Notes under the pieces: generated by a model
Database searches by the model: none
The model's input: only the letters and a program-made list of their open reading frames with translations
Told to the model about the DNA's origin: nothing
Made by a program: the position numbers and the translations under genes
Assembly: GCF_009687865.1 (NCBI RefSeq)
Contig: NZ_BLAE01000042.1
Span: forward strand, 1 to 36,198
Source of the DNA: Acrocarpospora macrocephala
GTDB lineage: Bacteria; Actinomycetota; Actinomycetes; Streptosporangiales; Streptosporangiaceae
DNA length: 36,198 nt
Direction of reading: 5' to 3'
Part shown: piece by piece, positions 2,880-15,087 of the stretch
Layout: every line of letters begins with the position of its first letter
Numbering within the stretch: the stretch's first letter is position 1

Positions 2880-4661
2880 TCACCTGGACGCGCCGCGCGG
2901 GCTGATCGACGGGACGATCGGGAACCACCAGACGTGCGGGTAGACGGGTGTGGTCTGGTGGTCCCAGTTCCCGACCAGGTCGGTGTAGCGGGCCGACCTG
3001 ATCAGGAGGTTGTCGTGCGAGCCCAGCTGGGCGGACGTGCCGTCCAGCAGGAGGACGCGGTCGGCGCGGCGGGCCGAGCTGATCCGGTGCGCGATCACGA
3101 TCAGCGTGCGGCCGGTGGCGGCGAAGGCCTCCTCCGCCCGGGCTTCGGCGGCGGCGTCGAGGTGGCAGGTCGCCTCGTCCAGGACGATCACCTTGGCGGG
3201 CGAGAGGTAGACGCGGGCGAGCGAGATGTGCTGGCGTTCCCCGGCGGACAGGGCAGGTCCGCCGACGCCGAGCCGCGCTGAATAGCCGCCGAGGCGTTTC
3301 ACCAGCTCCCCCATGCCGAGCGCGGCCACGGCCCGGTCGAGCTCGGGCCGCGTGGTGTCCGGGCTCAGGTAGATGAGGTTCTCGTGCAGGGAGCCGGAGA
3401 AGACGTACGCCTCCTGCGGGATCAGGGCGACCTCGGCGACGCGCACGTGGGTGACGGGCACCCCGCCGAGCCGTACCTCCCCGGACTGCGGGGTGGCGAG
3501 GCCGGCGAGCAGCATGGCGAGGGTGGATTTGCCGGTCCCGCTGGGGCCGACGACGGCCAGGTGGCGGCCGGCGGGGATGCGCAGGGTCAGGTCGTCGATC
3601 ACCGGGTCCGCCTTCGGGCCGTACGCGAAGGTCAGGCCCGTCACGGTCAGGTCGTAGGAGACGGGGCGGATGTCACGGCGGGGCGCGGTGACGTCGGAAG
3701 GCGCGCTCGTTTCGGCGATCCGGTGGAGGAGCACGCCCAACTGGCGGCCCCAGGAGGCGATGGTTCCGGTGAGGGAGCGCAGCGCGGGGTCCAGGGTGCT
3801 GACCAGGTAGGTGGTCGCGCCGACGAGCTCGCCGGGGGTCATCCGGCCGGGCCGCAGCAGCCAGGGCGAGAGCAGCAGGATCAGGAGCACCGGCACGCCC
3901 CCGCCCAGCGCCATGATCAGGGTGCGCAGCGAGGAGGTCCTGGCCAGGACCAGGCGGGCGCGGGCCTCCGTGCGCAGGGCTCGGTCGGCCGTCTCGCGGG
4001 CGGTGTCGACGGCGCCGCCCGCCACCACGTCGCGCAGGCCGTCGAAGATGTCGGTGGCCACCCGGGTCACCCGCTCGCCCGCGAGGATCATCTCCCGCTG
4101 GCGGGCGGCCAGCGCGCGGGTCAGCCAGGCGAACAGCCCGAGGCTCAGCAGGACCAGCGGCGTGACGATGGCCGCCACGATGGGCGCGAGGGCGAAGAGC
4201 CCCACCAGGGCCAGGACCATCGACGCGAGCGTCGGCCGGAAGGTGCGCAGCAGCGCGGCGACCAGGTTGCGCACGGTTTCGGCCTGCCGCCCCAGGCGGG
4301 ACACCACGGAACCGTCGGCGCCCTCCTCGCCGTCCACGGCCCGGCGTAACGCCGCCTCGACCACGGTGCGGACGAGCGCGTCGCGGATCGGCTCGACGAT
4401 GCGGGCCAGCCACGGGAAGGTGTTGCGGGTCGCCAGCGACTGCAGCACCATCGCCAGCCCGAGCGCGCCCAGCCAGGCCAGGCCGATCCCCGGGCGCCCG
4501 GCCAGGAAACCCTGGTCCAGCGCGGCGGCCACGGCCAGGCCGGAGAACAGCGCGGGCAGCGACTCCAGCACCGACCAGGCGCCCAGGAAGGCCAGCGCCC
4601 GCCGCCGCTGGGCCAGCTCCCGGGTGAGCAGCCGCCACCCGGCCTTGCTCACGGTCTTCAT
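2880..4661 (-). CDS. ABC transporter half-subunit 2 of the lanthipeptide operon
   Basis: The 593-aa TMD-NBD half transporter is probably the partner of the upstream ABC gene in exporting the modified peptides. Several hydrophobic segments fill residues 20-300. The NBD has Walker A GPSGTGKS (372-379), a Q-loop glutamine near 416 (LIPQEAY), a non-canonical signature LSAGE (471-475), Walker B VIVLDE with catalytic Glu496, and switch His525. The start ATG overlaps the TGA of the preceding gene (ATGA), indicating translational coupling. About 30 C-terminal residues extend beyond the usual NBD end and are rich in Trp, Pro and Tyr. There is no C39 peptidase domain, so leader removal must be done elsewhere. 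This is the last gene of the operon. Confidence 0.9.
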   Translation of the reverse strand: MKTVSKAGWRLLTRELAQRRRALAFLGAWSVLESLPALFSGLAVAAALDQGFLAGRPGIGLAWLGALGLAMVLQSLATRNTFPWLARIVEPIRDALVRTVVEAALRRAVDGEEGADGSVVSRLGRQAETVRNLVAALLRTFRPTLASMVLALVGLFALAPIVAAIVTPLVLLSLGLFAWLTRALAARQREMILAGERVTRVATDIFDGLRDVVAGGAVDTARETADRALRTEARARLVLARTSSLRTLIMALGGGVPVLLILLLSPWLLRPGRMTPGELVGATTYLVSTLDPALRSLTGTIASWGRQLGVLLHRIAETSAPSDVTAPRRDIRPVSYDLTVTGLTFAYGPKADPVIDDLTLRIPAGRHLAVVGPSGTGKSTLAMLLAGLATPQSGEVRLGGVPVTHVRVAEVALIPQEAYVFSGSLHENLIYLSPDTTRPELDRAVAALGMGELVKRLGGYSARLGVGGPALSAGERQHISLARVYLSPAKVIVLDEATCHLDAAAEARAEEAFAATGRTLIVIAHRISSARRADRVLLLDGTSAQLGSHDNLLIRSARYTDLVGNWDHQTTPVYPHVWWFPIVPSISPRGASR

Positions 4662-6397
4662 GCCGGTTCCCTGGTCAGATCGTCCGTCGTGGCGAACAGC
4701 GCGCGGTAGTCGGGGTCCTGGTTGAGGCGGTCGTGCGGGCCGACGGCCCGCACCCGCCCCTGCTCGATCCAGACGACCAGGTCGGCGCGGGCGGCGGTGC
4801 CGGCGCGGTGGGCGACCAGAATTCTGGTACGGCCCGCGAGCAGCCCGGCCAGCGTCGCGCTCACCTCGGCTTCGGTGGCGGTGTCCAGGCTGGAGGTGGC
4901 GTCGTCGAGGATCAGCACGCGGCGTTCCCCGGTCACGGCCCTGGCCAGGCCGAGCCGCTGGACTTCACCGCCGGACAGCGGCGCCTGGTCCAGCGGGGTG
5001 TCGTACCCCTGGGGCAGCCGCCGGATGAACCCGTCGGCCGAGGCCAGGACCGCCGCCAGTTCGACCAGTTCGCGGCTGATGTCCCCGCTGCCGTAGGCGA
5101 TCGTGTCGTGCACGGTCTCGCCGAGCAGCGCGGGCCGCTCGAAGGCGTAGGCGACCGCGCGGCGCAGCTGGTCGGGCCGCAGGTCGGCGACCGGCGCGCC
5201 GTCCAGCAGGACCTGGCCGTGGTCGGGGGCGATGAGGCCGCCGGCGAGGGCCGCGAGCGTGGACTTCCCGGCTCCGGACCTGCCGACGATGGCGACGGCG
5301 AGCCCTGCGGGGATGTCCAGGTCGAGCCCGTCCAGCACGACGTCCTCGTCGGCGCGCACGGTCACCCCGCGGAAGGCGAGCGCGCCGGGGCCGTCCGGGA
5401 GCGGCAGGGTTCCCCCGGGGCCGTCCGGCAGCACCAGCACCTCCGCCAGCCGGGCCGTTCCCGCGCGTACGTGCGCGTAGCCCATCAACGTGTCCACCAC
5501 ATTGAGCAAACCCAACGCGATCCCGACATATCCGGCCACCGCGATCCAGGAACCGGCGGTGATCCGCCCGTCGGCCACGCCCACCCCGGCGACGGCCAGC
5601 ACGGTGACCTCCACGAGCGGAGCCAGCAGCATCACCTTCCACACCGTGCGCCGCTGGGCGTCCCAGGTCGCCAGACCGGCGGCGCTCAGCTCCGGCAGCG
5701 GCTCCAGCACCCGCTCCACCTCGCGGTCCAGCGTCCCGCTCGCCCGGATCGTCCGGGCGCCGGACATCGCCTCCACCAGCCGCGCCGACAGCGAGCCCTG
5801 CAGTTCCTGGTAGCGCGTCAGCAGCTCGGTCGCCTCCGACATGAACCGCCGGATGATCACGGCCGCCACCGGCACGGACACGACGAAGGACAGCGCGAGC
5901 GTCCAGTCGATCAGCACCAGCGCCACCAGGCCGCCGACGGCGGCCACCACCGCGTCGGCGATCGAGAGCACGGTCGCCACCAGCCCGGACGCCTCGGAGG
6001 TCCCGGACACCAGCCGGCTGCTCAGGTCGCCCGCGGGAAACCTGCGCTGGCTGGGCACGCCCGCCCTGAGCACGCGCTGGACCAGTCCCCGGCGCAGCGA
6101 CAGCTCCACGGCGGTCGCCCCCGCGGTGCTCGCCCAGGTGTCCAGCATCTCGGTCAGCAGCGCCGTACCGAGCAGGACGCCCAGCCAGACCAGCGCGGGG
6201 GCGAGCCCGGAACCGGCCAGGGCGGCGTCGACCGCCGCGGCCAGCGCGGCGGGCAGGAGCAGGACCGTCGCGGTGCCCGCCACGCTGGACAGCACCAGCG
6301 CGGCGGTCCACCCCGGCGCACGCCGCACCGAGAAGAGCAGCAGGCGCGCGGGTGTGTCCACCTCCCGGGAGAGGAGCACACCATTGTCGCTGGACAT
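4658..6397 (-). CDS. ABC transporter half-subunit 1 of the lanthipeptide operon
   Basis: The 579-aa TMD-NBD exporter half has membrane segments in residues 15-300. The NBD has Walker A GRSGAGKS (372-379), a canonical signature LSGGE (474-478), Walker B ending LDD (Asp499 in place of the catalytic Glu) and His530. The Q-loop is also altered (YAFERP). Paired with the next gene, the degenerate Walker B here would face the variant LSAGE signature there, giving one degenerate and one active ATP site, as in heterodimeric exporters. The ATG at 6397 is chosen because GAGAGG lies just upstream and it gives a 60-nt gap after the third precursor gene. Its stop overlaps the next start (ATGA). Confidence 0.9.
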   Translation of the reverse strand: MSSDNGVLLSREVDTPARLLLFSVRRAPGWTAALVLSSVAGTATVLLLPAALAAAVDAALAGSGLAPALVWLGVLLGTALLTEMLDTWASTAGATAVELSLRRGLVQRVLRAGVPSQRRFPAGDLSSRLVSGTSEASGLVATVLSIADAVVAAVGGLVALVLIDWTLALSFVVSVPVAAVIIRRFMSEATELLTRYQELQGSLSARLVEAMSGARTIRASGTLDREVERVLEPLPELSAAGLATWDAQRRTVWKVMLLAPLVEVTVLAVAGVGVADGRITAGSWIAVAGYVGIALGLLNVVDTLMGYAHVRAGTARLAEVLVLPDGPGGTLPLPDGPGALAFRGVTVRADEDVVLDGLDLDIPAGLAVAIVGRSGAGKSTLAALAGGLIAPDHGQVLLDGAPVADLRPDQLRRAVAYAFERPALLGETVHDTIAYGSGDISRELVELAAVLASADGFIRRLPQGYDTPLDQAPLSGGEVQRLGLARAVTGERRVLILDDATSSLDTATEAEVSATLAGLLAGRTRILVAHRAGTAARADLVVWIEQGRVRAVGPHDRLNQDPDYRALFATTDDLTREPA

Positions 6398-6420
6398 TCC
6401 GGCCTCTCGATCAGTGAATA

Positions 6421-6447
6421 TGGAGTGGACCGCGCGGGCCCACTCCA
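6421..6447 (-). terminator. Hairpin after precursor gene A3
   Basis: An 11-bp stem (6421-6431 with 6437-6447) starts 11 bases after the A3 stop. On the minus-strand transcript the single mismatch becomes a G-U pair, so the stem is complete on that strand only. No U-tract follows, so it may be a partial terminator or a 3'-end stabiliser that raises precursor mRNA above transporter mRNA. Confidence 0.5.
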
Positions 6448-6457
6448 CGAATTCTCG

Positions 6458-6589
6458 TTAAACCTCTATTTTGGTGGCGGCCACGCACGTCTTGAGGACG
6501 CACGAAACCAGGCCGCAGCTGAGCTCGCACATGCGCAGCCCTTTTTGCTCCGCCGGAAGGAGTTCCAGCGCGTTGACGTCTACGGTCAT
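6458..6589 (-). CDS. Lanthipeptide precursor A3 (43 aa)
   Basis: This short gene was read directly from the sequence. The ATG is preceded by AAAGGAG. The leader matches the two upstream precursors: Asp4, ALEL at 7-10, Leu11-Pro12, Glu14, Leu18-Arg19. The core starts at Cys21 and holds Cys21, 25, 30 and 35 with Ser24, Ser29, Thr34 and Thr39. Each of the last three Cys directly follows a Ser/Thr. There are four Cys and four Ser/Thr, so each could form one thioether, for instance Cys21-Ser24, Cys25-Ser29, Cys30-Thr34 and Cys35-Thr39. Expected fate: Ser/Thr phosphorylation, elimination and cyclisation by the LanKC-type enzyme, then leader removal and export. I do not recognise the product. Ring pairing is inference. 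Confidence 0.85.
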   Translation of the reverse strand: MTVDVNALELLPAEQKGLRMCELSCGLVSCVLKTCVAATKIEV

Positions 6590-6616
6590 TGAGGGACTCC
6601 TTTGTCATCGCGATGA

Positions 6617-6646
6617 CGCGGGGCGGGCCCGGTGGCCCGCCCCGCG
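6617..6646 (-). terminator. Strong hairpin after precursor gene A2
   Basis: A perfect 13-bp GC-only stem (6617-6629 with 6634-6646) with a 4-nt loop starts 6 bases after the A2 stop. No U-tract follows. A perfect 14-bp palindrome, gtcatcgcgatgac (6604-6617), abuts it just before the A3 ribosome binding site. It may attenuate transcription or stabilise the upstream mRNA. Confidence 0.6.
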
Positions 6647-6652
6647 CCGAGA

Positions 6653-6793
6653 TCACACCTTCTTGGTGATGTCGCAGGTGACGTTGCATGTCGCGTCCCC
6701 GCAGGTGATGCCACATGTGATCAGCCAACCGCACATCCTGAGCTCCACGGCCTCGACCGGGAGAAGCTCAAGCGCGCCGATGTCGACAGACAT
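6653..6793 (-). CDS. Lanthipeptide precursor A2 (46 aa)
   Basis: Start ATG with GAAAGGGGGGT upstream. The leader repeats the family pattern (Asp4, ALEL 7-10, Leu11-Pro12, Glu14, Leu18-Arg19). The core begins at Cys21 and contains Cys21, 27, 31, 36 and 40 and Thr26, 30, 35, 39 and 43, with no Ser. Every Cys after the first directly follows a Thr (TC dyads). Five Cys and five Thr permit complete one-to-one thioether formation, for example Cys21-Thr26, Cys27-Thr30, Cys31-Thr35, Cys36-Thr39 and Cys40-Thr43. Only methyllanthionine is possible from these Thr residues. The tail is basic (ITKKV). No labionin motif (SxxSx2-5C) is present. Product identity is unknown to me. Confidence 0.87.
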   Translation of the reverse strand: MSVDIGALELLPVEAVELRMCGWLITCGITCGDATCNVTCDITKKV

Positions 6794-6827
6794 ATTTTTA
6801 CCCCCCTTTCACATTCAATTTTCGAAG

Positions 6828-6852
6828 AGAACGAGCCCCGAATTCTCGTTCT
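6828..6852 (-). terminator. Hairpin overlapping the stop of precursor gene A1
   Basis: An 8-bp stem (agaacgag 6828-6835 with ctcgttct 6845-6852) and a 9-nt loop overlap the A1 stop codon. It is weaker than the hairpin after A2, but together they put one hairpin directly behind each precursor gene. Confidence 0.45.
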
Positions 6853-6997
6853 ATTCGGTCCAGACGGTCTTGGTGCACGTGCTCGTGCAGCTGACCTTCG
6901 GGAAACAGGTCCACAGGCACGAAATAAGAGTGCTGCACGGACGCAGCCCTTCGGCCTCGGCCGGCATGAGTTCCAGAGCGCGGATGTCGAATTCCAT
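6851..6997 (-). CDS. Lanthipeptide precursor A1 (48 aa)
   Basis: The ATG at 6997 follows AAAGGAGGTGA, a near-perfect anti-16S match, which decides the start. The leader has Asp4, ALEL 7-10, Met11-Pro12, Glu14, Leu18-Arg19-Pro20. The core from Cys21 contains Cys21, 27, 31, 37 and 41. Each Cys after the first follows a Ser or Thr (Ser26, Thr30, Ser36, Thr40). It is richer in hydroxyl residues (eleven Ser/Thr) than A2 and A3 and also has two Trp, so some Ser/Thr may stay unmodified or dehydrated. Thr23-x2-Ser26-x4-Cys31 is the only labionin-like spacing in the three cores. It is first of three tandem precursor genes and lies 64 bp after the protease gene. Confidence 0.87.
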   Translation of the reverse strand: MEFDIRALELMPAEAEGLRPCSTLISCLWTCFPKVSCTSTCTKTVWTE

Positions 6998-7035
6998 GTC
7001 GAATTTCACCTCCTTTCATTTCGTCGGACGGCCGC

Positions 7036-7055
7036 CGCGGGCGGGATCGCCCGCG
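7036..7055 (-). terminator. Hairpin between the protease gene and precursor A1
   Basis: A perfect 8-bp GC stem (cgcgggcg 7036-7043 with cgcccgcg 7048-7055) and GGAT loop lie between the protease stop and the A1 ribosome binding site. It could mark a processing or pausing site that sets the precursor genes apart from the enzyme genes. Confidence 0.45.
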
Positions 7056-7061
7056 CGGAGT

Positions 7062-8735
7062 TCACGGCGCCAGGAGAAAACGCACGAGCCGGTCGATCAG
7101 CTCGGGTCCCTGTTCGCCGTAGGTCGGATCGTGGCCGCCGGTCGGCGGTTCCACGTAGTCGAGTTCGCGGCCCGCCCGCAGCAGGCAGTCCCGCAGCAGC
7201 CGGGACTGGCCGACCGGGATCACCTCGTCGTTCCGGCCGTGGACGACCATCAGCCGGGCGGTGATGCGGGGCGCGAGCAGGGTCAGGTCGCGCGGGCCGA
7301 GCGCGTCGTCGATGACCTCGCGCCCGCCCAGCCGCTCGATCAGCGCCTGTACGGCGGGTGAACCCTCCTGGTAGAGGCTCGGCCCCGACACGAACGGCGC
7401 GACCGCGACGCAGCGGGACCACAGCCAGGGGTCGGCGGCGGCGGCCAGCAGGCCCAGGAAGGCGCCGTAGCTGGTGCCGTGCAGCATCAGCGTGCGACCT
7501 TCGGCGGCCAGCAGACGCCCGAGATGCCGGATGTCGTCGAGGTCAGGCCCGCCCCACGCGCCCTGCAGCGCCTGCTGATGCTCCTGGCCGTAGCCGGTGC
7601 TGCCCCGGTAGTTGGGGGCGACGACGGCGATCCCGGCCGCCGCCAGCCGCTGCGGGAGCGGGTCGAAGTTCAGCTGGGCCGCCGCCTCCGGGCCGCCGTG
7701 CAGGGAGATCACCAGGTGCCGGGCGCGCCGCCAGTCGCCGTACACGACCGCCTCGATCGGGCCCGCGGGCCCGGCGAACTCGTGGACCTCGGCGTCGGCC
7801 CAGTCGCCCTCGCCGTCGGCGGACAGCTCCCAGGAGCCGGTCGCGGGGTCGACGGTGGCGATGCCGCCGGGCTGGGCCGGCGCGGAGAACGGGAAGCGCA
7901 GGCCGCCCGGGCCCCAGGCGCTGACGTTGTGGATGATGCCGGGCGGCGTGGCGACGGGGCGGATCCGCTCCTCGCCGGGGGTGTAGACGACCAGATGCGA
8001 GCGGGTGCCGCGATCCACCCGGAGCGCGAAGTCCTCGCCCGCGGCGGCCATCGGCGCGACCAGGCCCTCGATCGTGTCCAGGACGCCGGGGAAGGCCGGC
8101 GGCTCGCCGGGGAGCGCGTGGCCGAGCCGTAATCGGCCGTCCACGGTTCCCGCCAGGAGCAGGCGCCGCCCGCTGAGCAGCAGGTGCTGGCCCGGAGACG
8201 TCCCGGCCATGGGCTGGAAGGATCCGGAGCGGAGATCCAGCTCGATCGGCGTGGGCGCGTCCCCGTGGTGGTGGGTGAGGCCGAGCAGGCAGGCGCCGAG
8301 CCGGTGCCCGCCGGTCACGACGCCGGGGAGCTCGGCCACCTTCTCCAGGTCCCCGTCCAGCACCCGCCAGATCGCCGTGTCCCCGTCGCCGGTGCGGGCG
8401 AAGGCCAGCGCCAGCTCCTGTCCGCCCGGGCTGGCGACCAGCCGTACCGCCGGGCTGGGGATGGTGACCAGCGGGCGTTCGCCGGACGGGGTCGCCAGCA
8501 CCAGCCGGTGGAACCCCGGGCCCGGCCGGGTCAGGACGACCCCGCCGTCCGGGCGGCAGAGCAGCTGGGTCCAGGTGCTCTCGCCCTGGCTAGTGGGGAG
8601 CGCCCGGCGCTCGGCCCCCGCCGGGGTGAAGCGCCACGACTCCACGTTCAGCCGGCCGTCGTCCCCGCCGGTCAGGCAGGCGGCGTGGCTCGCGTCCCCG
8701 GCGAAGGCGAAGCTGATGCGCGCGGTGGCGGCCAT
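7062..8735 (-). CDS. S9-family (prolyl-oligopeptidase-like) serine protease, candidate leader peptidase
   Basis: The 557-aa protein has an N-terminal beta-propeller-like part (about residues 1-320) and a C-terminal alpha/beta-hydrolase peptidase domain. Visible catalytic residues are Ser422 in GTSYG, Asp503 in GRNDEVIP and His535 in GGHDPTYG. HGGPEAA (346-352) and NYRGSTGYG (375-383) are typical S9 oxyanion/substrate segments. The ATG overlaps the lanKC stop (ATGA), with GGTGGGAG upstream. A longer frame reaching 8786 would sit inside lanKC and is not preferred. S9 enzymes serve as leader peptidases in some class III lanthipeptide clusters, such as the flavipeptin system. All three leaders share Pro12 and Arg19, either of which could be the cleavage residue. 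No signal peptide is seen, so it is cytosolic. Confidence 0.88.
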   Translation of the reverse strand: MAATARISFAFAGDASHAACLTGGDDGRLNVESWRFTPAGAERRALPTSQGESTWTQLLCRPDGGVVLTRPGPGFHRLVLATPSGERPLVTIPSPAVRLVASPGGQELALAFARTGDGDTAIWRVLDGDLEKVAELPGVVTGGHRLGACLLGLTHHHGDAPTPIELDLRSGSFQPMAGTSPGQHLLLSGRRLLLAGTVDGRLRLGHALPGEPPAFPGVLDTIEGLVAPMAAAGEDFALRVDRGTRSHLVVYTPGEERIRPVATPPGIIHNVSAWGPGGLRFPFSAPAQPGGIATVDPATGSWELSADGEGDWADAEVHEFAGPAGPIEAVVYGDWRRARHLVISLHGGPEAAAQLNFDPLPQRLAAAGIAVVAPNYRGSTGYGQEHQQALQGAWGGPDLDDIRHLGRLLAAEGRTLMLHGTSYGAFLGLLAAAADPWLWSRCVAVAPFVSGPSLYQEGSPAVQALIERLGGREVIDDALGPRDLTLLAPRITARLMVVHGRNDEVIPVGQSRLLRDCLLRAGRELDYVEPPTGGHDPTYGEQGPELIDRLVRFLLAP

Positions 8736-11419
8736 CACGGCGCTCCCACCGGCGTGCGGGCCAGCAGCTCGTCGAGCATCCACCACCGGGGCCCGCCGTG
8801 GCGGAGCCGGAGCAGGAACGCCACCGCGCCGCCCAGGCCGGTGTTGTAGCCAGGGGTGATCTCGGTGCCGGATTCGTCCGGAACCACCAGGAGGCCGTCG
8901 CGCAGGGTGTTCCTGGCGTACATGGCGGTCGCGAGACCGGCGGCCCAGTCGCGGTACCGCTCCTGGCCGGTGAAGTCGGCCAGGTCGAGCAGGTAGTCGC
9001 CGTCACCGGCCAGCCCGTGGCAGGCGCTCATGCCGCTGTGCCAGGCGCCCTGGCGCACCGCTTCCCCGGCCGCCTCGGCCAGGTCCAGGAACCGCTGCTC
9101 CCCGGTCACCGCCCACAGGCGGATCAGGAACGTGCCGACGCCGGAGGAGCCGCTGCACCAGTGCCGCATCCGGGTCCTGGCGTCGCCGCTCTCCTCGCCG
9201 GTGCGCCACCAGGCGGCCCCGCCTTCGACGTCCGCCTCGGCGATCAGGGTCTCGGCCGCGCGCAGGGCCGCCGCCCGGTAGTCGGCGCGGCCGGTGACCA
9301 GCGAGGCGTACAGCAGGAACGTGCCCGCGCCGGCCACGCCGTGGGCGAAGCCGTAGTGCACGAGCCCGGCCAGGTCGGAGTCGAACGTCGCCGGGATCGG
9401 CCAGACGGTGTGGCCGTCGGCGCGCTCCCGCGCGGAGTGCAGGACGCTGTCGGCGGCGGTGAGGAACCGGTCCCGCCATTCGGGTTCGCCGGTGGCCAGC
9501 CACAGGTGCGCCTGGAGCATGCCCGCGCCGGAGGCGCCGTGGCAGATGTCGTGGTTGGGCCACTCGACCGGGACCCGCCTGGCCATCTCGGCCGCCTGGG
9601 CGGCCATCTCGTCGTCGCCGAGGAAACGCGCGGCCTCGTGCAGCGCCCAGGCCGTGCCGGAGCGGCCGAAATACAGTCCGGGCAGCACAATGGGGGTATC
9701 GAAGAGCCGCTGCTGTACCCAGCCGGCGACGGCCGCGACGCCGTCGCGGAGCCGGTCGCCGCCGAGGGTGCGCGCGCTCTGGGTGAGCACCTGCAGGACC
9801 CCGCCCGCGCCGTGCTGCACATTGCACGGGTCGGCCTTCGAGCCGAAGTCCCCGGCGGGCCAGAGCCGGTGGGAGTCCAGGGCCATCGTGCCCAGGATGT
9901 GGTCGAGCCCGTCGGTGATGAGCCGGTCCGGCGCGACGGGCGGCGCGGGCTCGCCGGGGTGGCCGGGCGGCGCGGCCAGGAAGTCGCGGGCCTGGTCCAG
10001 GCTCCACCGCTCGTCGGGGTCGTCCTTCATCAGGCCCAGCACCAGCGGGGCGAGGCGCCGCAGGGCCGGCATGTCCGCGCCGAGCAGGCTGACGAACTCG
10101 GCGACCCGGTCCTGCTGGGGGCGGTCGGCGGGCTGGTCGGCGGGGAGCAGCGGGTCCACCGCGGTGATCAGATGGATGAGCGTCGCGCCCAGGCCGTACA
10201 GGTCCGACCGCTGCGAGGGCGAGCGGCCGAGCCGGGGCGCGGCCTCCTGCTCCGGCGCGCCGAACCCCGGCGTGTACGCCTTGACCACCAGCGACCCGAC
10301 GGGAACCGCGAGCTCCAGGTCGATCAGGCGCAGCGTGCCCTTCGGCGTGACCATCAGGTTGTTCGGGTTGAAGTCCCGCAGCACCAGGCCCTGCGCGTGC
10401 ACCCCCGCCATGATCTCCACGAGCTGGGCGGCCAGGTCCAGGGCCTCCTCCAGCGGCGCGCCCGCGCCCTGCCACATCCCCACCCGCTCCGACGTCCAGC
10501 CGCGCAGCGTGACGCCGGGCACGAGCTCCTGGGCCAGGAACATGTTGTCCTGGTAGGTCAGCAGGGCCACCTTGGCGGGCGTGCAGCCGAGCGGGGCGAG
10601 CCGGTCGAGCATGTCCGCCTCGTGGCGGAGCGTGTCCCGCGCGTCGGTTCCGGTCAGCAGGCCCATCACGTGCGGCCGGGCCTGCTTGAGGATGACCTCG
10701 GCGCCGGTGGTCTGGTCGACGGCCCGGTAGACGCCGCCCCGGTAGGAGTGCCTGATGGCCTCGCGCACCACGAAGCGGTCGCCGATCATGACCGCCGACG
10801 GCGTGCCGGGCGTGGGCTCGGGTTCCGGCAGCGGCGACTCGGCCCACGGCGGCGGGCTGTACCAGGCCTGCCGCTCGTCCTTGCGCCGCTCGCCGTCCGG
10901 GCTGACGAGCATCGACTCGTACGTGCCGTCGTTGGTGAGCACCGGCTTGGCGTTGAAGACGCCGAAGCGGTAGTGCACGAGGCTGCCGGGCCGCAGCCGC
11001 CGGTCGGAAAGGATCACCGGTCCCGGCAGGCCGTCGGTCACCCGGTCCAGCTCGGCCGCGAGGCGGCGGAACTGCTCGCCGTCGGCGGGGTAGGCGGTGA
11101 TGAACTTGCCGCCGCTGCCCCGGTCGATGTTGCTGGAGATCAGGTCGGCGAGCTGGTCCAGGCCCCGGGCGAACTTGAACATGCAGCCGTCCCTGACCAG
11201 GACCTCGGCGGCGCGGGCCAGCACGATCGGGGCCGACAGCTGGGTGGCCGACACGTGCAGCTTCCAGCCCTGCTCCAGCCGGATCTCCGCCGGCGGGGTC
11301 AGCATGCACCAGAAGTCGCCAGGCTCGACCTGCCACGCCTCGGTCGTCTCCCTGGCCAGCACAGACCTGGCGATATCCACCAGGAGCCGCGAGTCGGCTC
11401 CTCCCCCATCAGCACGCAC
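8735..11419 (-). CDS. lanKC: Class III/IV-type lanthipeptide synthetase (lyase-kinase-cyclase)
   Basis: The 894-aa trifunctional enzyme phosphorylates, eliminates and cyclises Ser/Thr and Cys of the three precursors. From the N-terminus: a phospho-Ser/Thr lyase-like domain (about 1-205; GWKLHVSAT at 51-59, FKFARG at 81-86, RGSGGKFITAYP at 100-111, close to LanKC enzymes); a kinase domain (213-485; Lys245, LRDFNPNN 347-354, IDLE 366-369, SDLYGLG 405-411); and a LanC-like cyclase (500-894) with HGAGG, LYFGRSG, CHGASG, HGVAGAG, WCSGSSG, CHGLAG and GLGG repeats. Cys755, Cys800 and His801 match the zinc ligands of NisC, which class III enzymes usually lack and class IV (LanL) keep. The GTG at 11419 is chosen because GGAGG lies about 8 bases upstream. 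A frame to 11503 is open but covers the repeat region. Confidence 0.92.
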   Translation of the reverse strand: MRADGGGADSRLLVDIARSVLARETTEAWQVEPGDFWCMLTPPAEIRLEQGWKLHVSATQLSAPIVLARAAEVLVRDGCMFKFARGLDQLADLISSNIDRGSGGKFITAYPADGEQFRRLAAELDRVTDGLPGPVILSDRRLRPGSLVHYRFGVFNAKPVLTNDGTYESMLVSPDGERRKDERQAWYSPPPWAESPLPEPEPTPGTPSAVMIGDRFVVREAIRHSYRGGVYRAVDQTTGAEVILKQARPHVMGLLTGTDARDTLRHEADMLDRLAPLGCTPAKVALLTYQDNMFLAQELVPGVTLRGWTSERVGMWQGAGAPLEEALDLAAQLVEIMAGVHAQGLVLRDFNPNNLMVTPKGTLRLIDLELAVPVGSLVVKAYTPGFGAPEQEAAPRLGRSPSQRSDLYGLGATLIHLITAVDPLLPADQPADRPQQDRVAEFVSLLGADMPALRRLAPLVLGLMKDDPDERWSLDQARDFLAAPPGHPGEPAPPVAPDRLITDGLDHILGTMALDSHRLWPAGDFGSKADPCNVQHGAGGVLQVLTQSARTLGGDRLRDGVAAVAGWVQQRLFDTPIVLPGLYFGRSGTAWALHEAARFLGDDEMAAQAAEMARRVPVEWPNHDICHGASGAGMLQAHLWLATGEPEWRDRFLTAADSVLHSARERADGHTVWPIPATFDSDLAGLVHYGFAHGVAGAGTFLLYASLVTGRADYRAAALRAAETLIAEADVEGGAAWWRTGEESGDARTRMRHWCSGSSGVGTFLIRLWAVTGEQRFLDLAEAAGEAVRQGAWHSGMSACHGLAGDGDYLLDLADFTGQERYRDWAAGLATAMYARNTLRDGLLVVPDESGTEITPGYNTGLGGAVAFLLRLRHGGPRWWMLDELLARTPVGAP

Positions 11420-11459
11420 GTGATCGTCCTCCAACGCCCCCGGCCGAAGCATCTCTTCG

Positions 11460-11506
11460 GTTCCGTGATGTACGGCGTTCCATGGAGTTCCGTGACGTTC
11501 CACGAC
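11460..11506 (-). promoter_or_regulatory. Helically phased GTTCC repeats upstream of lanKC
   Basis: GTTCC occurs at 11460, 11477, 11487 and 11497; the last three are 10 bp apart in the form GTTCCRYGRN. On the minus strand these read GGAAC, which resembles the -35 element of many ECF sigma factors. They lie 40-90 bp upstream of the likely lanKC start, where an operon promoter or activator site is expected. Function is inferred. Confidence 0.4.
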
Positions 11507-11615
11507 CGGCCACGCCGCCGGAGATCAGGCTGGCGGGCAGGCGGGTGCGGATACGTGTGCGCGCAGGTCAGGACGGAGGCCGCCGCCACGCAGCAGCCGT
11601 TACCATATCGTGATA

Positions 11616-13634
11616 TTAGAGCAGCTTGGCCGGGGTGATGGGCAGGTCGCGGACGCGCCGGCCGGTCGCGTGGTAGACGGCGTTGGCGACCGCGGCGGCG
11701 GTGCCGACGATGCCGATCTCGCCGATGCCCTTGGTGCCCATCGGGTTCAGCTCGCCGTCGGCCTCGTCGAACCAGACGGCCTCGACGTGCTCGATGTCGG
11801 CGTTGACCGGCAGGTGGTACTGGGCCAGGTCGTGGTTGGTGAAGCCGCCGAACTCCAGGTCGACGACGCTCTGCTCCATCAGCGCCATGCCGATCCCCAT
11901 GATCATGCCGCCGACGAACTGGGATCTGGCCAGCGTCGCGTCCACGATGCGCCCGGCGGCGAACACGCCGAGCATCCTGGACACCCGCACTTCGCCTGTG
12001 TCGGCGTCCACGCGCACCTCGGCGAACTGCGCCCCGAAGGCGTGCCTGGCCAGTTCGGCGTCGGCGTTGACGGCCTCGGTGGTGTCGGCGAAGCCCTGCT
12101 TGCCGTCGCGCAGCAGGTCCTGGCAGGCCATGGTGACGGCCGTGCCCCAGGAAGCCGTGCCCATGGAGCCGCCGGCGACCGGGGCGTATGGCAGGTCGCT
12201 GTCGCCGAGCTCGACGCGTACCAGGCCGGGGTCGACGTGGAGGGTGTCGGCGGCGATGCGGGTGAGCGCGGTACGGGAGCCGGTGCCGATGTCGGCGGCG
12301 GCGATGCGGACGACGAACCCGCCGTTCTCGACCGCGGCGCTGGCCTGGGAGGGGCGCCGCCTGGCCGGATAGGTGGAGGAGGCGACGCCGGTGCCGACCA
12401 GCCAGCGCCCCCGGCGGCGGACCCCTGGGGCCGGGTCGCGGTCGCGCCAGCCGAACCGCTCCGCGCCCTCGCGCAGGCAGGCGACCAGGTTGCGGGAGCT
12501 GAACGGCAGGCCGCTGTCCGGTTCGGTGTCCGGATCGTTGCGTACGCGCAGCTCCACCGGGTCGACGCCGACGGCGACGGCCAGCTCGTCCATGGCCGAC
12601 TCCAGGGCGAACATGCCGGGGCACCCGCCGGGCGCCCGCATGATGGAAGGGGTGGCCGTGTCGAGCCGTACCAGGCGGTGGGCGGTGCGCAGCGCGGGCG
12701 CGGCGTACATGACGCGGGTCGCGGTGGCGGTCTGCTCGGCGAACTCCACCAGCGTGGAGCTCTGCTCGGCGACCTCGTGTTCGAGCGCGGCGATGCGGCC
12801 CGCGGCGTCGGCGCCGACCCGGATGCGCTGGATGGTCGGGGTGCGGTAGCCGGTGACGTCGAACATCTGCTGCCGGGTCAGCGCGACCTTGACCGGGCGG
12901 CCCGCCGCCCGCGCGGCGAGGGCGGCCAGGACGGAGTTCGGCCTGGGGCTGCCCTTGGACCCGAAACCGCCGCCCACGTGCCTGGACACCACCCGGACCC
13001 GCTCGCGGGGCAGGCCCAGCGCCTGGGCGATCATGTCCCGGCCGAGGGAGACGCCCTGGGAGGAGTCGTAGAGCGTCAGGTCGCCGTCGCCGTTCCACAG
13101 GGCGAGCGTGGCGTGCGGCTCCATCGGATTGTTGTGCATGGTCGGGGTCGTGTAGGTCACGTCGATGGTGACCTGCGCCCCCGCGAGACCCGCCGCCACG
13201 TCGCCCTTCTCGGTGTCGGTCGGGAAGTCGGGGTTGACCTTGTCCGGCTTGTACAGGCCGCGGTGGTCGGCGCGCAGCATCACGTCGTGGGCCTCGGGCT
13301 CGTACGCCACCCGGACCGCGCGGGCGGCGGCACGGGCGTCGTCGTAGCTGTCGGCCACGACGGCGGCGACGATCTGCCCCCGGTAGGCGACCTCCCGGCG
13401 CTGGAACAGCGCCAGCTCCGGCTCGGCGTCCGCGCCCAGCTCCGGCGGCTCCTCACAGGACAGCACGGCCAGCACCCCGGGCATCGCCAGGGCCGCCGAG
13501 GCGTCGACACCGGCGATACGGCCGCGGGCGATCTCAGCCTGGACCGGGTAGCAGTAGGCGACGCCCTCGACCGGATACTCGGCCGCGTAGGTGGCACGGC
13601 CGGTGACCTTGTCATGCCCCTCGACGCGATTCAC
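11616..13634 (-). CDS. Molybdenum hydroxylase large (Mo-cofactor) subunit
   Basis: The 672-aa xanthine dehydrogenase/aldehyde oxidase-family catalytic subunit contains VGGGFGSKG (Mo-cofactor binding), the MRAPGG segment and KGIGEIG near the C-terminus, holding the catalytic Glu. It is somewhat shorter than the E. coli PaoC-type subunit. The GTG start at 13634 overlaps the TGA of the FAD subunit (GTGA); the same open frame extends to 13805 but inside the FAD gene. The substrate (aldehyde or purine-like) is not predictable. It is followed by the lanthipeptide operon on the same strand after a 196-bp gap. An inverted repeat, atatc-gt-gatat (11605-11616), touches its stop. Confidence 0.9.
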   Translation of the reverse strand: MNRVEGHDKVTGRATYAAEYPVEGVAYCYPVQAEIARGRIAGVDASAALAMPGVLAVLSCEEPPELGADAEPELALFQRREVAYRGQIVAAVVADSYDDARAAARAVRVAYEPEAHDVMLRADHRGLYKPDKVNPDFPTDTEKGDVAAGLAGAQVTIDVTYTTPTMHNNPMEPHATLALWNGDGDLTLYDSSQGVSLGRDMIAQALGLPRERVRVVSRHVGGGFGSKGSPRPNSVLAALAARAAGRPVKVALTRQQMFDVTGYRTPTIQRIRVGADAAGRIAALEHEVAEQSSTLVEFAEQTATATRVMYAAPALRTAHRLVRLDTATPSIMRAPGGCPGMFALESAMDELAVAVGVDPVELRVRNDPDTEPDSGLPFSSRNLVACLREGAERFGWRDRDPAPGVRRRGRWLVGTGVASSTYPARRRPSQASAAVENGGFVVRIAAADIGTGSRTALTRIAADTLHVDPGLVRVELGDSDLPYAPVAGGSMGTASWGTAVTMACQDLLRDGKQGFADTTEAVNADAELARHAFGAQFAEVRVDADTGEVRVSRMLGVFAAGRIVDATLARSQFVGGMIMGIGMALMEQSVVDLEFGGFTNHDLAQYHLPVNADIEHVEAVWFDEADGELNPMGTKGIGEIGIVGTAAAVANAVYHATGRRVRDLPITPAKLL

Positions 13635-14602
13635 GGCGCCAGCTCCAGCAGGGTACGGACGATCAGGTTGCGCGCCAGCGGCACCTTGTACGCGTTCCGC
13701 GGCAGCGGCACGGCCTCCGCCATCTCGGCCTCGGCGGCCCGCACGAAGGCGTCCTCCCCCGCGCGGGAACCGCGCAGCGCCTGCTCGGCGTGGAACGCCC
13801 GCCACGGCACGTGCGCGACGCCGCCGAGCGCGATCCTGCAGTCGGCCACGGTCCCGTCCGCGCCGACGTCCAGGACGGCGGCGATGGACACCAGCGCGAA
13901 CGCGAACGAGGCGCGCTCGCGCACCTTGCGGTAGTGGGAGGCGCCGGGCGGCGGGGCGGGCAGGGCCACCGCGGTGATCAGCTCGCCCGGCTCCAGCCGG
14001 GTGTCACGGTGCGGCTCGTCGCCGGGCAGCCGGTGCAGCCCCGGCATCGCCAGGACCCGGTCGCCGCCGGGCCCGGTGATGTGCACGCGGGCGTCCAGCG
14101 CGGCCAGGGCCACGGCCATGTCGGACGGATGCGTGGCCACGCACGCGCGGGAGTGGCCGAGCACGGCGAGGTTGGCGTGATCGCCGCCGATGGCCGGGCA
14201 GCCGGATCCCGGCTGCCTCTTGTTGCACGGCTTCGAGACATCCTGGAAGTACGGGCAGCGCGTGCGCTGCAGCAGGTTACCGGCGACGGTCGCCATGTTG
14301 CGCACCTGCCCGGACGCCCCCGCCAGCACCGCCCGCGCCAGCACCGGATAACGCTCGCGCACCAGCGGATGCGCCGCCAGCTCGCTGTTGCGCACCGCCG
14401 CGCCGATCCGCAGCCCGTCGCCGTCCGGCTCGACGCCCCCGAGCGGCAACCGGCTCACGTCCACCAGCGCGCCCGGCTCGGCCACGCCGAGCCGCATGAG
14501 GTCGACCAGGTTCGTCCCGCCGCCGAGATACATCGCGCCCGGCCGGAATCTCGCCACCGCGTCGGCCGGGTCGGCGGCCCTGGCGTACTCGAACGCCTTC
14601 AC
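13631..14602 (-). CDS. Molybdenum hydroxylase FAD subunit with extra Fe-S insertion
   Basis: The 323-aa subunit matches the CO-dehydrogenase-flavoprotein family: YLGGGTNLVDLM (FAD pyrophosphate contact) near the N-terminus and GQVRNMATVAGNLLQ (FAD contact). An insertion with four Cys (TRCPYFQD...PCNKR...GSGCPA, with a further Cys in SRACVATH) matches the [4Fe-4S] loop of the PaoB/YagS and 4-hydroxybenzoyl-CoA reductase types. The GTG at 14602 overlaps the stop of the 2Fe-2S gene (GTGA). It relays electrons between FAD/Fe-S and an acceptor in the heterotrimer. No Moco-insertion chaperone gene is adjacent. Confidence 0.9.
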   Translation of the reverse strand: MKAFEYARAADPADAVARFRPGAMYLGGGTNLVDLMRLGVAEPGALVDVSRLPLGGVEPDGDGLRIGAAVRNSELAAHPLVRERYPVLARAVLAGASGQVRNMATVAGNLLQRTRCPYFQDVSKPCNKRQPGSGCPAIGGDHANLAVLGHSRACVATHPSDMAVALAALDARVHITGPGGDRVLAMPGLHRLPGDEPHRDTRLEPGELITAVALPAPPPGASHYRKVRERASFAFALVSIAAVLDVGADGTVADCRIALGGVAHVPWRAFHAEQALRGSRAGEDAFVRAAEAEMAEAVPLPRNAYKVPLARNLIVRTLLELAP

Positions 14603-15087
14603 GCGCCCACCTCCGCTATCGCGGTCACGATGTTCGGATAGGCGCCGCACCGGCACAGGTTGCCGCTCATCCGCTCCCGGATCTCCTCGGCCGTCAGCTC
14701 CGGCTCCCCCGCGAGCTCCTCGGTGACGGCGCTCGGCCCGCCCTCGGCCAGCATCCCGACGGCCGAGCAGAGCTGGCCCGGTGTGCAGTAGCCACACTGG
14801 AAGGCGTCGTGCTCGATGAAGGCCGCCTGCAGCGGATGCAACCGCTCACCACTGGCCAGCCCCTCGACGGTGGTGATCTCCGCGCCTTCCTGAGCGACCG
14901 CCAAGGCCAGGCAGGCCAGGACCCGCCGCCCGTCGATCAGCACCGTGCAGGCGCCGCACTGGCCGTGATCGCAGCCCTTCTTCGAGCCGGTCAGCCCCAG
15001 CCGCTCGCGCAGCAGGTCGAGCAACGAGACACGCGGGTCCACGTCGACCGGCCGCCGTACGCCGTTCACCTGCAGGGTGATCTCCAT
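14599..15087 (-). CDS. Molybdenum hydroxylase [2Fe-2S] subunit
   Basis: The 162-aa small subunit has an N-terminal plant-ferredoxin-type cluster (CDHGQCGACTVLIDG with a fourth Cys at VLAC) and a C-terminal [2Fe-2S]-binding helical domain (CGYCTPGQ and CRCGAY). It has no Tat signal, unlike E. coli PaoA, so the complex is probably cytosolic. It is the first gene of the three-gene operon. Upstream, at 15088-15233, no gene is called. Confidence 0.92.
   Translation of the reverse strand: MEITLQVNGVRRPVDVDPRVSLLDLLRERLGLTGSKKGCDHGQCGACTVLIDGRRVLACLALAVAQEGAEITTVEGLASGERLHPLQAAFIEHDAFQCGYCTPGQLCSAVGMLAEGGPSAVTEELAGEPELTAEEIRERMSGNLCRCGAYPNIVTAIAEVGA

Follow-up and report, generated by a model that had tools for sequence, protein, structure and literature searches.

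Beside a lanthipeptide synthetase gene of the actinomycete Acrocarpospora macrocephala lie three short open reading frames, and this locus raises the questions of the class to which the system belongs, the direction in which the rings of its products would be closed, the enzyme that would remove the leader, and whether the synthetase serves only the peptides encoded next to it. The window, by which we mean the whole stretch of DNA analysed, comprises positions 1 to 36,198 of contig NZ_BLAE01000042.1 and belongs to a 12.1 Mb draft genome assembly.

Gene content of the locus

All genes of the operon are on the minus strand, between window positions 2880 and 11503, and would be transcribed in the order LanL, S9 peptidase, P1, P2, P3, ABC half 1 and ABC half 2 (Table 1). 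The initial annotation had placed three reading frames of 48, 46 and 43 codons head to tail between a protease and ABC genes, and they were found exactly there, with the S9 peptidase frame on one side and the ABC exporter frame on the other; each is preceded by a Shine-Dalgarno sequence (AAAGGAGGTGA for P1, AAAGGGGGG for P2, AAAGGAG for P3). The proposed gene set, three lanthipeptide precursors in one operon with a synthetase, a peptidase and an exporter, is likewise borne out by the sequence. The S9 start codon overlaps the LanL stop codon as TGATG and ABC half 2 overlaps half 1 by ATGA, while the frame of ABC half 1 opens at 6448, inside a predicted RNA hairpin, and its likely start lies further downstream. 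At gathering scores Rfam gave no match in the window, a promoter scan of positions 4500-12000 found none (0.2 expected), and a terminator scan found two (1.2 expected); neither scan was given weight in the interpretation.

Table 1. Features of the operon in window coordinates
Feature	Position	Strand	Basis and remarks
LanL, class IV lanthipeptide synthetase by sequence (lyase-kinase-cyclase)	8735..11503	-	NF038150, domains, zinc motifs; ORF GTG taken as the start, which is uncertain
S9-family serine peptidase, candidate leader peptidase	7062..8735	-	PF00326; likely ATG 8735
Precursor P1, 48 aa, core CSTLIS CLWT CFPKVS CTST CTKT VWTE	6851..6997	-	ALQxL model 12.4 bits, below cut-off
Precursor P2, 46 aa, core CGWLIT CGIT CGDAT CNVT CDIT KKV	6653..6793	-	Core 24/26 identical to A. 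catenulata
Precursor P3, 43 aa, core CELS CGLVS CVLKT CVAAT KIEV	6458..6589	-	NF038157 26.6 bits, cut-off 19
Predicted RNA hairpin (TGGAGTGGGCC...GGTCCACTCCA) past the last precursor	6421..6448	-	Folding of a 52-nt stretch
ABC exporter half 1	4658..6397	-	PF00664 + PF00005; ILDDATSSLD, LSGGE; likely ATG 6397
ABC exporter half 2	2880..4661	-	PF00664 + PF00005; VLDEATCHLD, LSAGE

Directly upstream of LanL, at 11616-14797 on the minus strand, are genes for a molybdopterin hydroxylase of the PaoC/xanthine dehydrogenase kind, all scoring under the model cut-offs; they are probably ordinary neighbours outside the cluster. Near its downstream flank, the contig end (39-452, plus strand) holds a fragment of an IS110-type transposase, covering the C-terminal part and scoring 85.1 bits (cut-off 140).

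The synthetase belongs to class IV

The synthetase had been annotated initially as LanKC, the class III enzyme, and this assignment does not hold. With the NCBIfam class IV model NF038150 the protein scores 1108.8 bits (cut-off 650), and with the class III model 446.2 bits, under the cut-off of 575. RamC_N, Pkinase and LANC_like domains follow in one chain, and the zinc ligands C783, C828 and H829 of the cyclase domain are present in the motifs W782-C783 and C828-H829; over a 101-row LanL alignment these columns hold Cys in 100 rows, Cys in 100, and His in 85 with Cys in 15, one row being gapped. Absence of the ligands from the cyclase domain marks class III, according to passages of two reviews (PMC7268733, PMC10676316). 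Since the zinc ligands are present and the class IV model is passed while the class III model is not, the synthetase is, on its sequence, a class IV LanL. A class III system yielding labionin-type products has next to no probability: the domain order is identical and the class III model does give 446 bits, yet that score stays under its cut-off, the zinc site is intact, and the class III-type synthetase of this genome sits on another contig. There, the class III model gives a LanKC-type gene 919.9 bits across a 691-residue stretch, so that the host apparently possesses a class III system besides the class IV one.

Three precursors with a shared leader motif

Residues D4, A7-L8-E9-L10, P12, E14, L18-R19 and C21 are identical across P1, P2 and P3, as the initial annotation had noted. 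Three precursors, ordered alike, are also present in Acrocarpospora catenulata, whose LanL is 81% identical to that of the window. Compared with this species, the identical bases at codon positions 1, 2 and 3 number 41/48, 44/48 and 27/48 in P1 and 38/45, 41/45 and 33/45 in P2, which looks as expected under selection on the protein; in P3, whose core differs, they number 29/41, 27/41 and 22/41, a weak pattern. Because A. catenulata has three such frames in the same order with a protein-type codon pattern, weak for P3, P1-P3 are not chance reading frames. In aligned columns, identity to the A. catenulata peptides is 23/29 for the P1 core (P2, Table 1), 7/28 for the core of the linked third precursor and 16/20 for its leader. 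Within the first P1 module the closing residue S26 is kept, whereas S22 and T23 inside the module are replaced by Q and G. The stretch CGWLITCGITC of P2 is found again in a locus of a different genus (L071).

An HMM search of the own genome returned P1-P3 at E-values of 5.9e-20 to 3.2e-16, which are not independent, the 16-row alignment behind the model including P1-P3. With the curated ALQxL leader model NF038157, P3 passes, P1 falls short and P2 has no match; of the linked A. catenulata precursors, the third reaches 25.1 bits and passes, and the first two, at 17.2 and 16.0 bits, stay below the cut-off. Judged by sequence, the leader is known in kind, that of the ALQxL class IV peptides, and the curated model misses part of the family. 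The description of these precursors as an unusual family therefore fails for the leader, P3 passing the NCBIfam model, and stands for the core, which that annotation had left undescribed, and for two further precursors encoded elsewhere in the genome. Homologous short frames beside related synthetases, which the same annotation had named as a check, are present.

Conservation of the operon across LanL loci

We compared 101 loci, namely the window and 100 regions around listed LanL matches, which were picked mostly in order of score with some spread at the low end and are not a random sample; the A. catenulata locus used above is a duplicate of another entry (L046) and was left out of the counts. 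Genes were tallied from tblastn matches, at no less than 150 bits for S9 and at 200 and 100 bits for the two ABC halves, these being downstream on the same strand. The S9 peptidase occurs in 63 of the 101 loci, together with both ABC halves in 55, and wherever all four large genes are present their order is LanL-S9-ABC1-ABC2 (55/55). Of the 87 precursors in these full loci, 80 lie in the gap between S9 and ABC1. A search for related loci found one locus.

By type of core, 47 loci have a non-venezuelin precursor (exceptions included), 27 are venezuelin-like and 27 have none by HMM (E 0.05). The non-venezuelin loci carry one (29 loci), two (7), three (9) or four (2) linked precursors within 4.5 kb, and each of the 27 venezuelin-like loci carries one. 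Walker and others state that for 83% of class IV precursors no second one is predicted in the cluster (PMC7268733). In five loci of other genera (L088, L106, L097, L095, L098), three or four tandem precursors have ALD[ML]LP... leaders and divergent modular cores. In 26 of the 27 venezuelin-like loci (e.g. L050-L063, L065-L070), the precursor (TC.C.GLLT...) is accompanied by LanL, S9 and the two ABC halves, in contrast to the published ven cluster, which lacks a gene for a protease. Four distant LanL loci among those with no precursor by HMM (L134, L136, L138, L140) share a conserved small Cys-rich frame upstream of LanL, ending in CTVCHWGxTxLCDDFST, whose sequence perhaps represents a separate class IV precursor family.

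Core modules and the direction of the rings

From the first Cys onwards the cores of P1-P3 consist of contiguous C-x(2-4)-[ST] modules, each Ser or Thr standing directly before the next Cys. In most lanthipeptides the rings have the Ser/Thr residue N-terminal to the Cys. VenL, however, joins Cys34-Dhb39, Cys45-Dha49 and Cys32-Dhb43, all with the Cys first, besides Dhb31-Cys50 (PMC2843593), and therefore a LanL can close rings onto downstream residues. We had considered such reverse rings as new to class IV and dropped the idea, the topology of venezuelin already containing them.

The cores were analysed over unique precursors with an HMM E-value of 0.05 or better and a recognised leader motif, 15 venezuelin-like and 81 others; 10 of 109 precursors, nine venezuelin-like and one of locus L114, were dropped for want of a recognised motif, and the core was taken to begin two residues past the motif, as a stand-in for the cleavage site. 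Among the 81 non-venezuelin precursors, a Ser or Thr stands directly before 193 of 229 non-first Cys and directly after 46 of 229 non-last Cys. Interior modules are mostly of the x2 form (111), followed by x3 (37), x4 (26), x5 (10) and others (9), and 263 of 310 Cys are tiled in this manner, against a mean of 53.2 and a maximum of 69 in 500 shuffles.

Direction was assessed by placing disjoint rings of span 3-6. Closed from each Cys onto a downstream Ser/Thr, they accommodate 289 of 310 Cys, against a mean of 140.7 (sd 6.5) and at most 156 in 100 shuffles; in the opposite, usual direction they accommodate 156 (shuffle mean 141.3, maximum 159), which is shuffle level. With reverse rings every Cys finds a partner in 66 of the 81 precursors, and with rings of the usual direction this is so in 5. 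The shuffles ignore relatedness, a concern answered in part by a thinned set of 27 cores less than 50% identical, in which the reverse direction takes up 87 of 97 Cys (500 shuffles: mean 42.0, sd 3.5, maximum 52) and the usual one 46 (shuffle mean 42.6). A Ser or Thr follows the last Cys in 80 of the 81 precursors (shuffle mean 52). That the first Cys precedes any Ser/Thr is true of P1, P2 and P3; over the 81 precursors it shows no excess (25, shuffle mean 28.8) because leaders such as EES carry Ser. Of 46 loci, 33 fit the modules fully; the 15 of 81 precursors that do not come from the other 13, which are dispersed across the LanL tree and include A. catenulata.

Rings in the usual direction could still be formed by class IV enzymes if they were interlocked, each reaching from one module to the next but one with some Cys and dehydro residues left open. 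This is the commonest direction in lanthipeptides, and venezuelin has one such ring, Dhb31-Cys50. We nevertheless regard it as unlikely: besides the shuffle-level count over the family, spans of 3-6 would use at most 3/5 Cys in P1, 3/5 in P2 and 2/4 in P3, and there is no Ser or Thr between residue 3 and C21 in these peptides, so that a ring at C21 would have to close downstream.

A venezuelin-like product, in which reverse rings are overlapped and enclosed by one large forward ring into a globular whole, appears very improbable. Venezuelin-type loci do share the LanL family and the gene order with the window, and yet a Ser or Thr stands directly before the first Cys in 15/15 venezuelin-type cores against 4/81 others, and after the last Cys in 0/15 against nearly all the rest. 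P1-P3 lack the features of the venezuelin core, i.e. Thr before the first Cys, a Cys end and the spacing TC.C....T...T.C...SC, and within venezuelin-like cores the direction test separates nothing (30 and 31 of 60 Cys). In the LanL tree (FastTree, with a long-branch warning), the venezuelin-type loci form one group of 27 with support 100 and the window lies outside it, grouped (support 100) with L046, L071, L083, L094 and L084, none of them venezuelin-type.

From these patterns we infer, for the family, strings of 2-5 consecutive thioether rings with the Cys N-terminal. Free Cys, disulfides or partial dehydration are possible in the products. No described product matching the tandem-module core was found in the literature searched, the sequence of SflA being outside the comparison. 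When the precursor alignment was searched against 396 genomes of the phylum (E 1e-4), only the own genome matched, with at most 18 candidates scored per genome and misses possible. A separate genome sample did include two such peptides, in G978, a member of another family of the same taxonomic class. There a LanL (1003 bits) and an S9 peptidase (PF00326, 70.3 bits) are followed by two tandem precursors with the cores CGIT CTWT CSWT SIAE and CAST CTWT CSWT SIIE, in which the modules take the cleanest form that we saw.

Putative leader removal and export

The S9 peptidase (PF00326, 73.9 bits) aligns its Ser-Asp-His motifs GTSYG, NDEVIP and GGH with the acylaminoacyl peptidase 2qzp, and its nearest solved relatives by sequence are acylaminoacyl peptidases, with one entry named prolyl oligopeptidase (7c72) lower in the ranking. 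Among 63 S9 stretches of the surveyed loci the His motif is found in 62 and a loose Asp pattern in 34, a low count that is taken as a poor pattern and not as a lost residue. The leader may instead be cut by an AplP-like M1 metalloprotease encoded elsewhere, the S9 enzyme having another role, and we treat this as a plausible if rather doubtful explanation. SflA, of class IV, is processed by an unlinked AplP-like enzyme, as part of one report states (PMC10885120); the own genome contains four M1 (PF01433) matches over the cut-off; and S9 is missing or cut short, at a threshold of 150 bits, in 38 of 101 LanL loci, including L083, L084 and L094, three of the five nearest kin of the window. Against it, S9 lies between LanL and ABC1 in every full cluster, and the GxSxG motif is found in 63 of 63 stretches. 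The leader Pro as a cleavage rule for this enzyme was considered and rejected, as Pro is absent despite S9 in L048, L111 and two of the three precursors of L086, and is kept without S9 in L084, L107, L108, L109 and L085.

ABC half 1 combines LDD, in which Asp replaces the catalytic Glu, with LSGGE, and half 2 combines LDE, with the Walker B Glu, with the variant LSAGE. Over 57 ABC pairs, half 1 has Asp in 34, Gly in 1 and 22 unread, with LSGGE in 40 and 17 unread; half 2 has Glu in 46 and 11 unread, with LS[A/Q/H/S]GE in 55 and 2 unread. By these motifs the two halves look like a heterodimeric exporter with one degenerate ATP site.

Precursors encoded away from the synthetase

The own genome contains one LanL over the cut-off and two further precursors outside the cluster. 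One, at C81:47705, was first seen with the ALQxL model (17.8 bits, below the cut-off of 19) and has the core CQVIT CVWFT IVVHAKNTNG; it is part of the search model, so its E-value of 3.8e-18 is not independent. It lies 3 kb from a contig end, and the cluster, on another contig, is equally close to the start, so that the two could in principle be neighbours. The other, at C13:153066 (E 9.9e-7), is at least 62 kb from either contig end. In A. catenulata two precursors are found on contig C114, 20 kb from its end, and the LanL on C35, 59 kb from the end; one C114 core, CQLT CGLTS CALKT CVAAT KLEI, is identical to window P3 at 17/23 positions, while the linked third precursor differs. In G302, two LanLs and a precursor share a single 7.8 Mb contig, and the coordinates put 4.3 Mb between the precursor and the nearer LanL (more than 2 Mb if the contig is circular).

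Among 341 genomes of the family, 32 gave 76 precursor matches, seven of which are on a contig without LanL or megabases away from one, an upper figure given draft assemblies and comparison by eye. All 32 precursor-bearing genomes have a LanL match (E 1e-180), against 118 of 341 overall (hypergeometric 8e-17), and by genus the figures are 14/14 against 27/68 (2e-7); these tests ignore relatedness, and the rows of the precursor model come from LanL loci. No precursor match was obtained in a same-genus genome that lacks LanL.

Past the last precursor of the window and that of A. catenulata, and also past the precursors at C81 and C114, comes a similar hairpin, GGAGTGRGYC...CACTCC in a four-way alignment. 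The window copy folds at -23.7 kcal/mol over 52 nt (z -4.19), and the C81 copy at -23.6 (z -1.86), with 9 of 200 shuffles as good. The role of this hairpin may be in trimming the precursor transcript or in its termination. Between P2 and P3 (6617-6648, minus strand) there is another strong G+C inverted repeat (GGCGCGGGGCGGGCCACCGGGCCCGCCCCGCG), and A. catenulata has a similar one at the same place.

Proposed pathway and its implications

We think it likely, with fairly good confidence, that the locus is a class IV LanL operon that makes rings in the order of the modules, removes the leader with its S9 peptidase, exports through its ABC transporter and modifies unlinked precursors in trans. Ring closure, processing, export and action in trans are all steps that we read from gene content and peptide sequence. 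LanL would bind the ALELLP leader; its kinase and lyase domains would dehydrate the Ser or Thr that closes each C-x(2-4)-[ST] module, and its zinc cyclase would join the Cys that opens a module to the dehydro residue with which that module ends. The predicted product is a series of four or five consecutive, small, non-overlapping (methyl)lanthionine rings, each with the Cys N-terminal. If only the module-ending Ser/Thr react, P1, P2 and P3 would lose 5, 5 and 4 H2O, and their cores counted from C21 would have monoisotopic neutral masses of 3037.367, 2627.183 and 2296.145 Da. Leader removal would then fall to the S9 peptidase, perhaps assisted by an aminopeptidase of the host, and the heterodimeric ABC exporter would secrete the product. 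The same LanL would probably also modify the two precursors encoded elsewhere in the genome.

A broader generalisation, which we put forward tentatively and hold to be close to an even call but short of it, is that one LanL serves dispersed and evolving precursors, each giving 2-5 reverse, non-overlapping rings, with the C-x2-4-[ST] module as the evolutionary unit and a code for ring size. If so, class IV would be a modular ring-writing system. Should the module reading hold, ring positions would be predictable from sequence for a whole family, the direction of the rings could be chosen by design, and class IV would gain, in the conserved S9 gene, a candidate leader peptidase within the cluster. 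Unlinked precursors would mean that mining restricted to clusters undercounts class IV products. A review describes class IV as the least studied of the lanthipeptide classes (PMC10676316), and a 2022 paper counts two characterised members and adds two (PMC9576775).

Comparison with known systems

The closest likeness in the leader is to the NF038157 ALQxL family, whose model covers 17 leader positions and carries no information on the core; P3 exceeds its cut-off, while P1 scores below it and P2 goes unmatched. Venezuelin (VenA/VenL/VenT/VenH) resembles the window system in its LanL synthetase, in ABC export and in rings closed by VenL from Cys to downstream Dha/Dhb (PMC2843593), and in the surveyed loci the leader of venezuelin-type precursors is likewise an ALxxLP one. 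The venezuelin rings, however, overlap within one 20-residue ring, whereas those of the window are predicted as side-by-side modules with no enclosing ring. As outlined in part of its description, the ven cluster encodes one precursor and an ABC transporter split into an ATPase and a permease subunit, and lacks a protease gene (PMC2843593), unlike the window with its three precursors, S9 peptidase and two full half-exporters. SflA is also of class IV and is reported to have non-interlaced rings, two in number (PMC8358304), and differs in that ring number and in being processed by an AplP-like enzyme encoded outside its cluster, as described in part of PMC10885120.

An S9 serine peptidase encoded within a lanthipeptide cluster has a parallel in FlaP of the flavipeptin cluster, which passages of the same report present as a class III prolyl oligopeptidase cutting after Pro(-12) (PMC10885120). 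The window system is of class IV instead, and the nearest solved kin of its enzyme by sequence are acylaminoacyl peptidases. Prochlorosins combine constant leaders with divergent cores; they are class II (LanM) products of cyanobacteria with Nif11-type leaders, whereas the window system is of class IV and has far fewer precursors. The two systems are alike in that prochlorosin precursors, too, are encoded far from their synthetase, as a section of one review relates (PMC7268733).
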